Translations under genes and position numbers: made by a program
Origin: Pseudanabaena sp. FACHB-2040
Lineage (GTDB): Bacteria > Cyanobacteriota > Cyanobacteriia > Phormidesmidales > Phormidesmidaceae
Reading direction: 5' to 3'
Assembly (NCBI RefSeq): GCF_014696715.1
Contig: NZ_JACJQO010000022.1
Span: forward strand, 186,001-250,000
Length of the DNA: 64,000 bases
In this document: piece by piece, positions 9,886-56,382 of the stretch
Layout: every line of letters begins with the position of its first letter
How positions within the stretch are numbered: position 1 is the stretch's first letter
Notes under the pieces: generated by a model
What the model saw: only the letters and a program-made list of their open reading frames with translations
Database searches by the model: none
Told to the model about the DNA's origin: nothing

Positions 9886-10261
9886 GTGCTCTGCTCAAAA
9901 AAATTAAGGACATTGATCGAAGTATCTGCATCTCCCCGATTCCTGATCCTATAGATGTCTTATTTACTACATTGAAAAATGCTTGGGATTGCTCCCTACC
10001 TGCTCTAATTCCCCCAAAATTGGCAGCCATTCAGATCAAGCTGAATACTGCAAATGCACTTGCAAAAGGCAGGTATCAGCAACAAATCAAACAGTATCAT
10101 TAGTTTCTGCCGAATCTACGTGAATTTGCTGAGCTTATTCAGTTCTTTAAATGATGTAGCCCTTGTTACAAGAGCGCCGACGCGACTCCAAGCCAGGCTG
10201 GTTTTGGGCGAACGGGCAATGCCAATCTACCCAGAGCTTTTGGGGCTTTGCAGACTCTTTC
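9886..10261. other. Intergenic stretch upstream of the PTPA-CTERM gene
   Basis: No gene is supported. The open frame at 10054-10362 is rejected because its C-terminal part is a translation of the AAACCGGGTTT repeat. The first 100 bases should contain the promoter and ribosome binding site of the PTPA-CTERM gene, but I cannot fix a clear -35/-10 pair. Confidence 0.4.
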
Positions 10262-10508
10262 AGAAACCGGGTTTTTTAAGACTGCTCAGACAACTTGCAT
10301 CGCCAGAGCAGAAACCCGGTTTCTTGACCTCAGGCTTCTCTTTTAGAAACCGGGTTTTTTAGAGCTGCTCAGACGACTTGTACTGGCAGGGTAGAAACCC
10401 GGTTTCTTGGCCTTGGGCTTTTGACAACTTGCATGGCAGGTTAGAAACCCGGTTTCTTGGCTTTGGCCCCAGACGACTTGCAGTGGCAGGGCAGAAACCG
10501 GGTTTCTT
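10262..10508. repeat. Six copies of an AGAAACC(C/G)GGTTTCTT palindrome
   Basis: Copies lie at about 10262, 10310, 10345, 10393, 10443 and 10493, 35-50 bp apart. The palindrome centre appears as ACCCGGT or ACCGGGT. The spacers are also alike, with CAGACGACTTGCA(GT)GGCAGGG recurring, so this is a tandem array of a roughly 50 bp unit and not only isolated palindromes. It begins directly after the stop codon of the small gene at 10513 and could act as a transcript end. A second array is at 56165-56358. Confidence 0.9.
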
Positions 10509-10512
10509 GGCC

Positions 10513-10773
10513 TTAGGCTTCTGCAGGGCGTTCGCCTGAATTGCTCGCTCGCCGCTGGGTGAGGATGGAGACGTACTCGCCGCCTCGCCCGGTCAGCATC
10601 GGCTTAGACCAGTCGCCCGCATCGGCGTAGCCCAAGCGGTGCAGCGTGTGAATCGTGTCTCGCAAGATGGCGTAGTCGCCTAGGAGAATGTGCCGCAGGG
10701 TTTCCTGGTTTGGGGGCGGCAGGGGAATGGAAGCCGCTGGCTGCGGCTGAGGGTCAGTATGTTCTTGACACAT
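10513..10773 (-). CDS. Small cyanobacterial protein, paralogue of the 41855 gene, behind a structured leader
   Basis: The 86-residue product is mostly hydrophilic. Residues 15-70 contain ILRDTIHTLHRLGYADAGDW, then SKPMLTGRGGEYVSILTQ. This aligns with VLDRMTKYLHSLHYADPDDW and the following SDPIPSGKDNQWMMVLIKHLL of the protein at 41855-42100, so the two are paralogues. I do not recognise the family or its function. I chose ATG at 10773-10771 because AAAGGAAC lies just upstream and the paralogue has the same start context; an ATG at 10854 would extend the frame into the structured leader. Position behind the conserved RNA suggests expression controlled at translation. Confidence 0.8.
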   Translation of the reverse strand: MCQEHTDPQPQPAASIPLPPPNQETLRHILLGDYAILRDTIHTLHRLGYADAGDWSKPMLTGRGGEYVSILTQRRASNSGERPAEA

Positions 10774-10982
10774 AGGTTCTAGTTCCTTTTGAGTGAAGAA
10801 ACTAGAACTCAAGACCTGGCTATTCCCAGCAAGGTGCATATGAGGAACAGCCAAGGTCTAAACTGACTTTAGCTGACCGCACTGCTGACACAGTGTGGGA
10901 GGTCAGGGGATTGGAGAGACTGCCATCTTTCCTTTCCCCGCCCAAGTCAAGAGTTCTAGGAAGCGGTCGGGAATCAACCGTA
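10774..10982 (-). promoter_or_regulatory. Structured 5' leader, riboswitch-like, copy B
   Basis: Read on the minus strand, CTAGAACTC (10959-10951) pairs perfectly with GAGTTCTAG (10810-10802) as a closing stem. It is extended by GACTTGG (10948-10942) with CCAGGTC (10819-10813). Inside lie four hairpins, including CTGACC...GGTCAG and CTAAA-GTCAG-TTTAG. A second hairpin, GTTCTAGTTTCTT (10808-10796) with AAGGAACTAGAAC (10788-10776), covers the AAGGA ribosome binding site. Its 5' arm overlaps the closing stem, so the two cannot coexist. The same plan occurs at 41629-41854. Function as a riboswitch is inferred. Confidence 0.72.
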
Positions 10983-10988
10983 CAAGAG

Positions 10989-11017
10989 AGAATAGTGTGG
11001 GCTGAGGCATCAGTCAA
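10989..11017 (-). promoter_or_regulatory. Sigma70-type promoter of leader B
   Basis: On the minus strand TTGACT (11017-11012) is followed after 17 bp by TATTCT (10994-10989), placing the start near 10982. The leader copy at 41.6 kb has the same -10 hexamer. Confidence 0.7.
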
Positions 11018-19554: not shown

Positions 19555-19750
19555 AACGCGTAGCCGCAACACCAGGGCAGGATTTGGGAGCAGGTCATGA
19601 CATATTAGAGCACATCACTTCGCCTCTGGAGCGGAATCCTGAGAATCGCCGGTACGGATATACTCCCTATCGAGGGTTAGATCCCGTAACTCGCCTCTTG
19701 CCTTTTCCCCCTCATTGTTGGCTATGATGATCACTAGTTTCACTGCGGCG

Positions 19751-19778
19751 TTGGTGACTGCCAACAATGTTTTACGAT
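19751..19778 (+). promoter_or_regulatory. Sigma70-type promoter of the 6S RNA candidate
   Basis: TTGGTG (19751-19756), 16 bp spacer, TACGAT (19773-19778). The expected start near 19784 coincides with the 5' arm of the RNA closing stem. Confidence 0.55.
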
Positions 19779-19781
19779 CTA

Positions 19782-19965
19782 TGTTTGTTTCAAACGGGAA
19801 CCAAGCTGTGTCGGTGGCGGTATACCGGGCCTAGTACCCGGAAACCTTAAGCCTGATGCCACGGTACCCACCTGGTGTATACCAGGTCGGAAGCTGAGGT
19901 AAGACGGCGTTGCGGTGAACATTTCAAGATTTTCCTCTGTCCTTATGGTCAGAGGAATTTTTGTA
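19782..19965 (+). ncRNA. ssrS: 6S RNA candidate
   Basis: About 184 nt from the predicted start to the end of the terminator, the usual 6S length. Near the ends, ATGTT..CAAACG can pair with CGTTG..AACAT around an internal loop. Then an open central region is followed by a stem GTGGC/GCCAC capped by CCGGG-loop-CCCGG. On the 3' side lies AAACCTTAAGCCTGATG, which resembles the AAGCCTTAAAACTG of Escherichia coli 6S RNA, and then the hairpin ACCTGGT-GTAT-ACCAGGT at the place of the E. coli CACCTTG...CAAGG hairpin. 6S RNA binds sigma70 RNA polymerase by mimicking an open promoter. The call is by eye. Confidence 0.72.
19930..19962 (+). terminator. Rho-independent terminator of the 6S RNA candidate
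   Basis: TTCCTCTG (19932-19939) pairs with CAGAGGAA (19950-19957) and is followed by a T-run to 19961. Confidence 0.85.
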
Positions 19966-41592: not shown

Positions 41593-41622
41593 TTGACGCC
41601 CACGCAGCACACACCGTATTCT
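41593..41622 (+). promoter_or_regulatory. Sigma70-type promoter of leader A
   Basis: TTGACG (41593-41598), 18 bp spacer, TATTCT (41617-41622); predicted start near 41629. The leader B promoter has the same -10 and nearly the same -35. Confidence 0.68.
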
Positions 41623-41628
41623 CAGTCA

Positions 41629-41854
41629 TTAAGCTGTCGTGCGCGGCAGCCTAGACCCGGAACTCATTGACTTAGCGCCGCCTGCAAGTGTTCGCAGCAC
41701 AAACAGGCGACTAGTCCCCCGAAGCTGATGCGAGCAGTTCGGAGGCTTGGAGGTCAGTTTACCTCCCCTGCCGCCCCGATTGCACACAACCACGGGGCTG
41801 CTAGGAAAGTGAGTTCTGGTTTCCTAAACCACATCACATAGGAACCAGAACCTC
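41629..41854 (+). promoter_or_regulatory. Structured 5' leader, riboswitch-like, copy A
   Basis: The closing stem is CCGGAACTCA (41657-41666) with TGAGTTCTGG (41810-41819), ten pairs including one G-T, extended by TAGC (41673-41676) with GCTA (41800-41803). Inside are four hairpins: GCCTG/CAGGC (41680/41704), CCGAA/TTCGG (41719/41738), GGAGGT/ACCTCC (41749/41761) and CCCCG/CGGGG (41774/41793). A competing hairpin, GTTCTGGTTTCCTA (41813-41826) with TAGGAACCAGAAC (41839-41851), covers the AGGA site of the next gene. Both stems need 41813-41819. I considered 6S RNA because GTGTTCGCA and AGTCCCC occur, but the four-hairpin plan, the paralogous copy and the separate candidate at 19782 argue against it. 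Confidence 0.75.
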
Positions 41855-42100
41855 ATGTTTCAATCAACCGAAATGGGCGCTCAGCCGCCCACAGTTCCAC
41901 CTGCTCAATCGACCAGGCCCAAACCAAAACGCGAGAAGATTACCAACGTGCTCTACGGCAGCTTGGAAGTGCTCGATCGCATGACCAAGTACCTGCACAG
42001 CCTCCACTACGCAGACCCCGACGACTGGAGCGACCCTATCCCCAGCGGCAAAGACAACCAGTGGATGATGGTTCTCATCAAGCACCTGCTGATTGAGTAG
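41855..42100 (+). CDS. Small cyanobacterial protein, paralogue of the 10513 gene, behind a structured leader
   Basis: The 81-residue protein has a Pro/Thr-rich first quarter, then a basic KPKREKITN, then the conserved part VLDRMTKYLHSLHYADPDDW with SDPIPSGKDNQWMMVLIKHLL. The core L(H/Y)(S/R)L.YAD..DWS.P(M/I).(T/S)G is shared with the protein at 10513-10773. No signal peptide, membrane segment or catalytic motif is visible. ATG 41855 follows AGGA by 11 bases; this is a little long, and the ribosome binding site lies in the 3' arm of a hairpin. The function is unknown. Shared leader and start context say the two genes answer to the same signal. Confidence 0.82.
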   Translation: MFQSTEMGAQPPTVPPAQSTRPKPKREKITNVLYGSLEVLDRMTKYLHSLHYADPDDWSDPIPSGKDNQWMMVLIKHLLIE

Positions 42101-56164: not shown

Positions 56165-56358
56165 AGAAACCGGGTTTCTCCGCTCATGGTAAAGGATTCA
56201 ACGGAGCAAAGAGAAACCCGGTTTCTGAGGCTCGTAGGTAAAGAATCCAACGTAGCAAGCTAGAAACCGGGTTTCTGAGACTCGGGCTGAAGCAAACTAG
56301 AAACCGGGTTTCTCAACTCGCATGAAGTACAGCAGAGCAGACTAGAAACCCGGTTTCT
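56165..56358. repeat. Five copies of the AGAAACC(C/G)GGTTTCT palindrome
   Basis: Copies lie at 56165, 56212, 56262, 56299 and 56344, 37-50 bp apart. Spacers share AGCAAACTAG, ACAGCAGAGCA and AAGGATTCAACG-like words. The array lies between the convergent Uma2 gene and the gene ending at 56383. Confidence 0.92.
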
Positions 56359-56382
56359 GGGGCTAAACAAAGTAGGACTTTG

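Follow-up and report, generated by a model that had tools for sequence, protein, structure and literature searches.

The 64,000-nucleotide (nt) stretch of Pseudanabaena sp. FACHB-2040 analysed here (contig NZ_JACJQO010000022.1, positions 186,001 to 250,000; hereafter the window) contains two copies, A and B, of a dispersed unit consisting of a sigma-70-like promoter, a leader of about 200 nt and an open reading frame (ORF) for a protein of about 80 amino acids. Comparison of related leaders supports the view that the leader is a conserved two-state RNA, in which two helices, P1 and P6, compete for one strand. The reading that we prefer, and consider moderately probable, is that a cis-encoded antisense RNA kisses two loops of the leader and breaks P1, whereupon P6 forms and translation is shut off, and that these loops act as copy-specific addresses. 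A preliminary description of this DNA had presented the leader of copy B as a homologue of that of copy A; it lacks the mutual exclusivity of P1 and P6, the two hypervariable loops, the tens of copies per genome and the antisense -10-like element.

Copies A and B are homologous

The two copies lie on opposite strands about 31 kb apart. Copy B, on the minus strand, has the promoter TTGACT-17-TATTCT (-35 at 11012-11017 and -10 at 10989-10994), a leader RNA at 10774-10982 and an ORF of 86 amino acids at 10513-10773 with its ATG at 10773; this ORF was recognised from its translation and its paralogy to the ORF of copy A, and is the first row of the family alignment A3. Copy A, on the plus strand, has the promoter TTGACG-18-TATTCT (41593-41622), a leader RNA at 41654-41854 and an ORF of 81 amino acids at 41855-42100. 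Scanning of both promoters bears out the earlier statement that they have the -10 hexamer TATTCT in common, and the downstream genes are paralogues as had been proposed, with 20 of 62 residues identical (32%; E=1e-12 in a single comparison).

A covariance model (R1) built from 36 leaders, with A included and B excluded, recovers the leader of B at 10771-10962 with 63.6 bits and E=2.4e-16 in a search of the window, confirming that the two leaders are homologous; the match to A, itself a member of the model, spans 41654-41857 and scores 131.1 bits. Compared with 200 dinucleotide shuffles, the folds have z=-5.67 for leader B and z=-4.64 for leader A. The words previously listed as shared, GAACTC(A)TTGACTT, GTCAGTTTA, GAGTTCT[G/A]GTTTC and AGGAAC[C/T]AGAACCT, are present in both. 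The two leaders are not of equal length, as had been stated, since the -10 and the ATG are 215 nt apart in B but 232 nt apart in A. A third R1 match in the window, at 56260-56363 on the minus strand (9.3 bits, E 0.12), is probably due to chance.

Two helices compete for one strand

Covariation was examined in an alignment of 36 leaders (A4), which was assembled from 41 diverse leaders by removing six, one with a chimeric 5' end (L009) and five by eye (L070, L144, L145, L154 and L207), and adding L001. For P1 and P2 together (27 pairs) 94.3% of the cells are paired, against 32-45% in slid controls. Double changes occur at 15 of these pairs, and double-changed cells number 57 against 13.3 in shuffled alignments (a value reached by none of 500), to be read with the knowledge that P1 and P2 were initially predicted on the same alignment used for the test and that the shuffles ignore the relatedness of the leaders. 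P6, the helix adjoining the start codon, was written by hand (11 pairs) and is paired in 93.8% of cells; it has 18 double-changed cells against 5.9 shuffled (0 of 500), and five pairs with double changes against 2.7 shuffled (reached by 11 of 500). These numbers of double changes support the earlier proposal that selection keeps the RNA fold, and neither of the contrary outcomes set beforehand, an alignment no better than shuffles or paired changes that are insignificant in a larger set, was seen. The paired changes claimed between A and B are also real: the P1 5' strand, the middle strand and the P6 3' strand read CCGGAACTC, GAGTTCTGG and CCAGAAC in A, and CTAGAACTC, GAGTTCTAG and CTAGAAC in B.

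Columns 171-176 of the alignment, and in part column 177, are used by both P1 and P6. At columns 4, 177 and 212 six rows have T/C-G-C in place of the G/A-T-A of 25 rows, and both helices fit in 31 of the 36 rows. As P1 and P6 need the same strand they are mutually exclusive, and the leader would thus be a switch. When either conformer is forced, the P1 and P6 forms have -80.3 and -78.5 kcal/mol in A, and -76.4 and -79.2 kcal/mol in B, a gap of less than 3 kcal/mol. P6 holds the GGA core of the Shine-Dalgarno sequence, and it is from access to this sequence that we infer the on state and the off state.

In copy B (minus strand throughout) the P1 5' strand occupies 10940-10958, with an outer part TAGAACTC at 10951-10958 and an inner part GACTTGGGC at 10940-10948, and is followed by the P2 hairpin at 10906-10939; both are placed by family covariation. 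The long P5 hairpin at 10813-10858 is taken from the fold, and its 3' strand, GCCAGGTC (10813-10820), could, as read from the sequence, pair instead with the inner strand of P1. The switch strand common to P1 and P6 is GAGTTCTA at 10803-10810. The P6 hairpin (10776-10808) would sequester the Shine-Dalgarno-like AGGAA at 10783-10787, and ends at 10776, next to the ORF start at 10773. In copy A (plus strand) the corresponding elements are the switch strand at 41811-41819 (the middle strand given above), the P6 hairpin at 41813-41851 and, inside it, AGGAA at 41840-41844. The switch strands and P6 hairpins of both copies are assigned from covariation and conformer energies.

The distance from the end of the leader to the ATG is usually 25-31 nt, and in several leaders (for example L031, L205, L218 and L230) it is 58-204 nt; some of these have extra sequence in the apical loop of P6, and in others the difference may simply reflect the choice of start codon. 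The leader matches no plausible Rfam family at the gathering threshold or at E<=1, the only hits being chance-level microRNA matches. A gathering-level Rfam search of the window gave a single match, 6S RNA (RF00013), at 19737-19922 on the plus strand (90.6 bits).

Two loops are hypervariable

Loop1 lies in P2 and loop2 in P3, and both are hypervariable across the family. In copy B loop1 is TGGCAG (10920-10925) and loop2 is TGTCAG (10885-10890), the latter within the P3 hairpin at 10880-10895, on the minus strand; in copy A, on the plus strand, loop1 is TTCGCAG (41691-41697, in P2 at 41677-41711) and loop2 is ATGCGAG (41728-41734, in P3 at 41716-41745). Twelve near-identical leaders of the window's genome have 10 variants of loop1 and 10 of loop2, with the adjoining stems nearly unchanged, and in a second subfamily the leaders L067 and L074 are nearly identical except in loop1. 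The 134 leaders from genus g7 contain 51 loop1 and 54 loop2 sequences.

Rates of change were compared in non-overlapping close pairs from the 94 of 114 distinct leaders that could be parsed, the other 20 being dropped. Over 42 close pairs, the stems have the fewest differences per site (0.034), followed by the P5 loop (0.177), four-fold sites (0.293), loop1 (0.386) and loop2 (0.547). Loop2 exceeds the four-fold sites with p 4.4e-5 (42 pairs), and with p 0.0026 and 1.3e-4 at stricter cut-offs; loop1 and loop2 each exceed the P5 loop of the same RNA (p 4.1e-5 and 4e-7, respectively). Because both loops change faster than the unpaired P5 loop, being unpaired does not explain their hypervariability. 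The loops also differ at a single location: a syntenic locus shared by six genomes (L171-L174, L179 and L180), with a common downstream flank of 83-89% identity over 2.3-2.7 kb, has four loop1 and six loop2 sequences. L175 and L176, in which the unit is present and the flank is different, were not counted.

Loop1 sequences of seven bases mostly have the U-turn-like form Y-U-NNN-A-N: of 79 such loops, 68 have U as the second base and 65 have A as the sixth. In 32 of the 38 distinct seven-base sequences, exactly two of the three triplet positions are G/C. Seven exact reverse-complement pairs are present among 52 distinct loop1 sequences, where 1.2 are expected and none of 2000 column shuffles reaches seven. 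The loop form and the reverse-complement pairs together fit a base-pairing contact of set strength, the partners of which are able to trade places. An excess of such pairs is expected of a loop that pairs with its own complement; it is also possible that loop inversion acts as a mutation bias, which would yield the same excess.

Inversion of loop1 as a block was observed between close relatives in L194/L130 (TTAACGG/CCGTTAA), in L234/L158 (GTGAGA/TCTCAC) and in L003/L006 (core TACCA/TGGTA), and suggests that the loop may flip between the arms of its stem. The stems of L194 and L130 are without difference in the rate-test parsing, and 0.6% different in a separate comparison that used 109 of 153 leader-ORF items. 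Two other interpretations of the loops were dropped: pairing of loop1 with loop2 within the same RNA, which was noticed by eye in just two leaders (L001 and L008), and T-box-like reading of codons, since one loop1 accompanies many loop2 variants (by eye).

A candidate promoter on the opposite strand

P4 contains a candidate antisense -10, TAAACT, which lies at 10859-10864 on the plus strand in copy B, directed towards P3 and P2, and at 41756-41761 on the minus strand in copy A. In 32 representative leaders of less than 80% identity, B included, the highest-scoring antisense -10 within the P4 region has a mean score of 5.75 against 3.76 in 200 shuffles (standard deviation 0.31, highest shuffle 4.71), and the sense-strand control gives 4.16 against 3.90. 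Antisense TANNNT was seen by eye at P4 in all eight leaders from other genera, seven of which are from other families, with varying inner letters, and six of these eight keep the loop1 form YUNNNAA (also by eye). An RNA started at this -10 would traverse P3 and P2, and thus both variable loops.

Distribution of the gene family

The ORF family is multi-copy and cyanobacterial, with copies dispersed through the genome. A search of the window's genome with the protein of copy A returned 66 locations at E<=10; at E<=0.01 the number is 47. In the taxonomic family, 56 of 63 genomes have a protein match at E<=0.01, one of them with 66, and in a sample of the phylum the protein was found at E<=1e-4 in 23 of 292 genomes and 16 of 116 genera. 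The leader is present at E<=0.01 in 11 of those 23 genomes: the window's genome has 43 copies, G061 has 26, G080 (from another family) has 14, and each of the other eight has one to four. A profile headed by a sequence from genus g7 found 259 relatives, and in the best 80 of these the carriers that have names are mostly Nodosilinea and neighbouring Leptolyngbya-like genera. Nodosilinea nodulosa PCC 7104 is one carrier, with loci L175, L177 and others.

Matches within the window's own genome resemble one another over a span that begins about 20-25 bases before the -35 and ends at the stop codon, and their flanks differ, although a few of the copies (L003 and L006) also have some bases in common past the stop codon. 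Some copies are apparently broken (L038, L039, L040, L050 and L063). In genome G001 the interval corresponding to about 925 bp of the window, copy A included, is about 75 bp long, with flanks that are just 68-81% identical. A cluster of GAAACCCGGTTTCTT-like palindromes lies directly downstream of ORF B (window 10260-10520), and a different repeat, GATGGGCA...TGCCCATC, follows ORF A, in a stretch that recurs many times in genome G008. Among the matches listed from the open literature, no title or abstract beginning describes the family or its leader.

The small protein

The ORF protein has no match in Pfam, NCBIfam or PADLOC, and its PHROG matches (E 0.55 and 0.3) are unconvincing. The structure predicted for the copy B protein (pLDDT 76.2, pTM 0.51) is a small beta-alpha-beta domain whose N-terminus has low confidence, and a structure search with this model returned no trusted match (best Foldseek E 0.28). 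The best VIA-align Z is 4.7 (KCTD5, MinE and a DNA-ligase entry), with E2 DNA-binding domains slightly lower, and these likenesses probably reflect no more than a common arrangement. No hydrophobic helix is seen by eye in the A and B sequences, which are thus unlike a small hydrophobic membrane peptide; a toxin is one option for the role of the protein.

Phages gave no match to the protein of A, and IMG/VR gave none to that of B in a search reaching close relatives only. Eight distant matches were found in plasmids, all from Nostocales, and in plasmid D of Trichormus variabilis a relative is located between a ParG gene and a replication-related gene. The leader of this plasmid relative (L168:768-1140) has a fold of -143.1 kcal/mol (z -9.98) and is unmatched by R1; it has two long complementary arms that close just before the start codon.

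Seven members from the window's own genome that were examined have no R1 match (L053, L055, L057, L058, L069, L076 and L077). All of these except L053 have a small helix-turn-helix (HTH)-like ORF divergently upstream, and the four such ORFs that were scanned all match Pfam HTH models. In these members an HTH repressor might stand in for the RNA leader.

Discussion

In the mechanism that we prefer, the leader would alternate between a first state, with P2 to P5 enclosed by P1 and the Shine-Dalgarno sequence accessible, and a second, with the 3' strand of P1 engaged downstream in P6 and the Shine-Dalgarno sequence sequestered there. The putative antisense RNA would start at P4 and bear hairpins complementary to P3 and P2, kiss loop2 and loop1 of the mRNA, and pair on into the 5' strand of P1, such that the switch strand is released and P6 shuts translation. 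Each copy would be shut by its own antisense RNA, with the loops as its address. With loops as copy-specific addresses, paralogues would be expected to drift apart at the loops in the manner of compatible plasmid groups. We propose the address function because of the rate and form of the loops and the signal on the opposite strand, and not because of avoidance within genomes.

Several results weigh against this mechanism. Loops were compared within genomes, where copy-specific addresses would be expected to avoid one another, using 134 matches, all from genus g7, obtained with a search pattern that catches part of each genome's copies. Against permuted genome labels, avoidance of identical loop1 sequences was not seen (10 identical pairs against 11.3 expected, P 0.42), identical loop2 sequences were in excess (29 against 13.6 expected), and complementary loop pairs were neither enriched nor depleted (18 against 22.6 at 5 nt). 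The excess of loop1 over four-fold sites is marginal (p 0.31, 0.039 and 0.052 with 22, 31 and 42 pairs, respectively), and the close pairs used for the rates include paralogues possibly touched by gene conversion. The outer P1 pairs of the model are lost in L293, L294 and L295 (families f18 and f22) in the model's alignment. The simple presence of TANNNT is uninformative: on the antisense strand (0.78 against 0.54) it equals the top value among 200 shuffles, and on the sense strand, the control (0.875 against 0.70), it lies above the highest shuffle of 0.844, because of which we have slightly lowered our confidence in the mechanism. The antisense -35 is weak (GTGCAA/TTGCAA-like), a consensus promoter scan of A and B lists no antisense promoter, and scanning of both strands of A and B detected no intrinsic terminator.

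Other explanations account for parts of these data. In translational riboswitches the alternative pairing of one strand sets the exposure of the Shine-Dalgarno sequence, and the P1/P6 leader resembles them in this respect. A metabolite riboswitch or protein-binding leader that has no antisense partner, and the loops of which vary because they are unconstrained, is nevertheless highly improbable, as the leader has no plausible Rfam match and has hypervariable loops at its centre, loop2 changes faster than synonymous sites and both loops change faster than the unpaired P5 control, and loop1 retains the flanking U and A and has a G/C content that hardly varies. The bridge RNA of IS110 is a structured RNA with two variable loops, and a DEDD recombinase is encoded next to it. 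A similar guide RNA of a mobile element, with loops that recognise insertion targets, would agree with a structured RNA having two variable loops, with dispersed copies alike between constant limits, and with the short G001 interval where the window has the unit. However, the loops change without the unit moving, as seen at the syntenic locus in six genomes where the downstream flank is constant, and the unit contains one ORF of 81-86 amino acids and no recombinase known to Pfam or NCBIfam; the insertion-guide interpretation was dropped for the former reason, and we regard it as more improbable still. Pairing of the loops with a trans-encoded RNA, or kissing of paralogue leaders with one another, would dispense with a cis antisense RNA, and is consistent with the occurrence of loop1 strings and their exact reverse complements in one pool and, by eye, of complementary pairs inside some genomes. 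Such pairs are unenriched within genomes, for which reason paralogue-paralogue kissing was dropped, and the antisense -10 score would be left unexplained; trans pairing in either form thus seems improbable.

Type I toxin-antitoxin loci, of which hok/sok is one, usually although not universally encode toxins that are small hydrophobic membrane peptides. The unit could be such a locus, with the antisense RNA as antitoxin and the small protein as toxin, and its copies would then be addiction modules spread through the genome, which we consider possible but rather unlikely. It shares with par/Fst a small ORF, a sequestered Shine-Dalgarno sequence, a predicted antisense RNA, a U-turn-like loop and many chromosomal homologues, and the promoter, the candidate antisense promoter, the dispersed copies with broken ones among them, and the divergent HTH-like ORFs of six of the seven R1-less members, as if these had their own repressor, would also fit. 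In contrast to type I systems, the protein has about 80 amino acids, a predicted beta-alpha-beta domain and no toxin match in the databases named above, and the interaction loops are in the 5' leader. It is also unlike MsoT1/MsoA1 of Microcystis, from which it is set apart by the description of MsoT1 as a protein of 63 amino acids with two predicted membrane helices (PMC12390103). In the par/Fst type I locus a U-turn motif in the kissing loop is reported to be able to start kissing (PMC7472228).

The preferred mechanism of antisense kissing at copy-specific loops resembles ColE1 RNAI/RNAII and the RNAI of I-complex plasmids, in that the stems are conserved and the variable loops are of the specificity type. 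For the I-complex plasmids (IncB/O and IncK) it is reported that a few nucleotides in the top loop of RNAI decide kissing, and that IncK1 and IncK2 become compatible through one change in RNAI, stem changes having no significant effect (PMC10724649); diversification of the ColE1 loop is reported to give compatible origins (PMC9458437). Loop letters, as these plasmid systems are described, set specificity more than stems do (PMC10724649, PMC9458437). Unlike in ColE1 and the I-complex, the controlled gene is a chromosomal small ORF, present tens of times in a genome, instead of a replication function, switching is between P1 and P6, and the antisense RNA is here a prediction only.

A wider interpretation, which we offer tentatively and with some doubt, is that this is a self-spreading chromosomal family with tens of copies per genome, in which each copy has its own antisense-RNA lock and a private two-loop key, and in which the keys change at a rate above that of neutral sites, in part through flipping of the loop between stem arms. 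If true, the family would be a chromosomal counterpart of plasmid incompatibility and a large natural library of RNA-RNA address codes. The relation between loop function and orthogonality is currently studied with engineered ColE1 loops (PMC9458437); here, hundreds of natural kissing loops in one scaffold would show which changes keep function and which give orthogonality.
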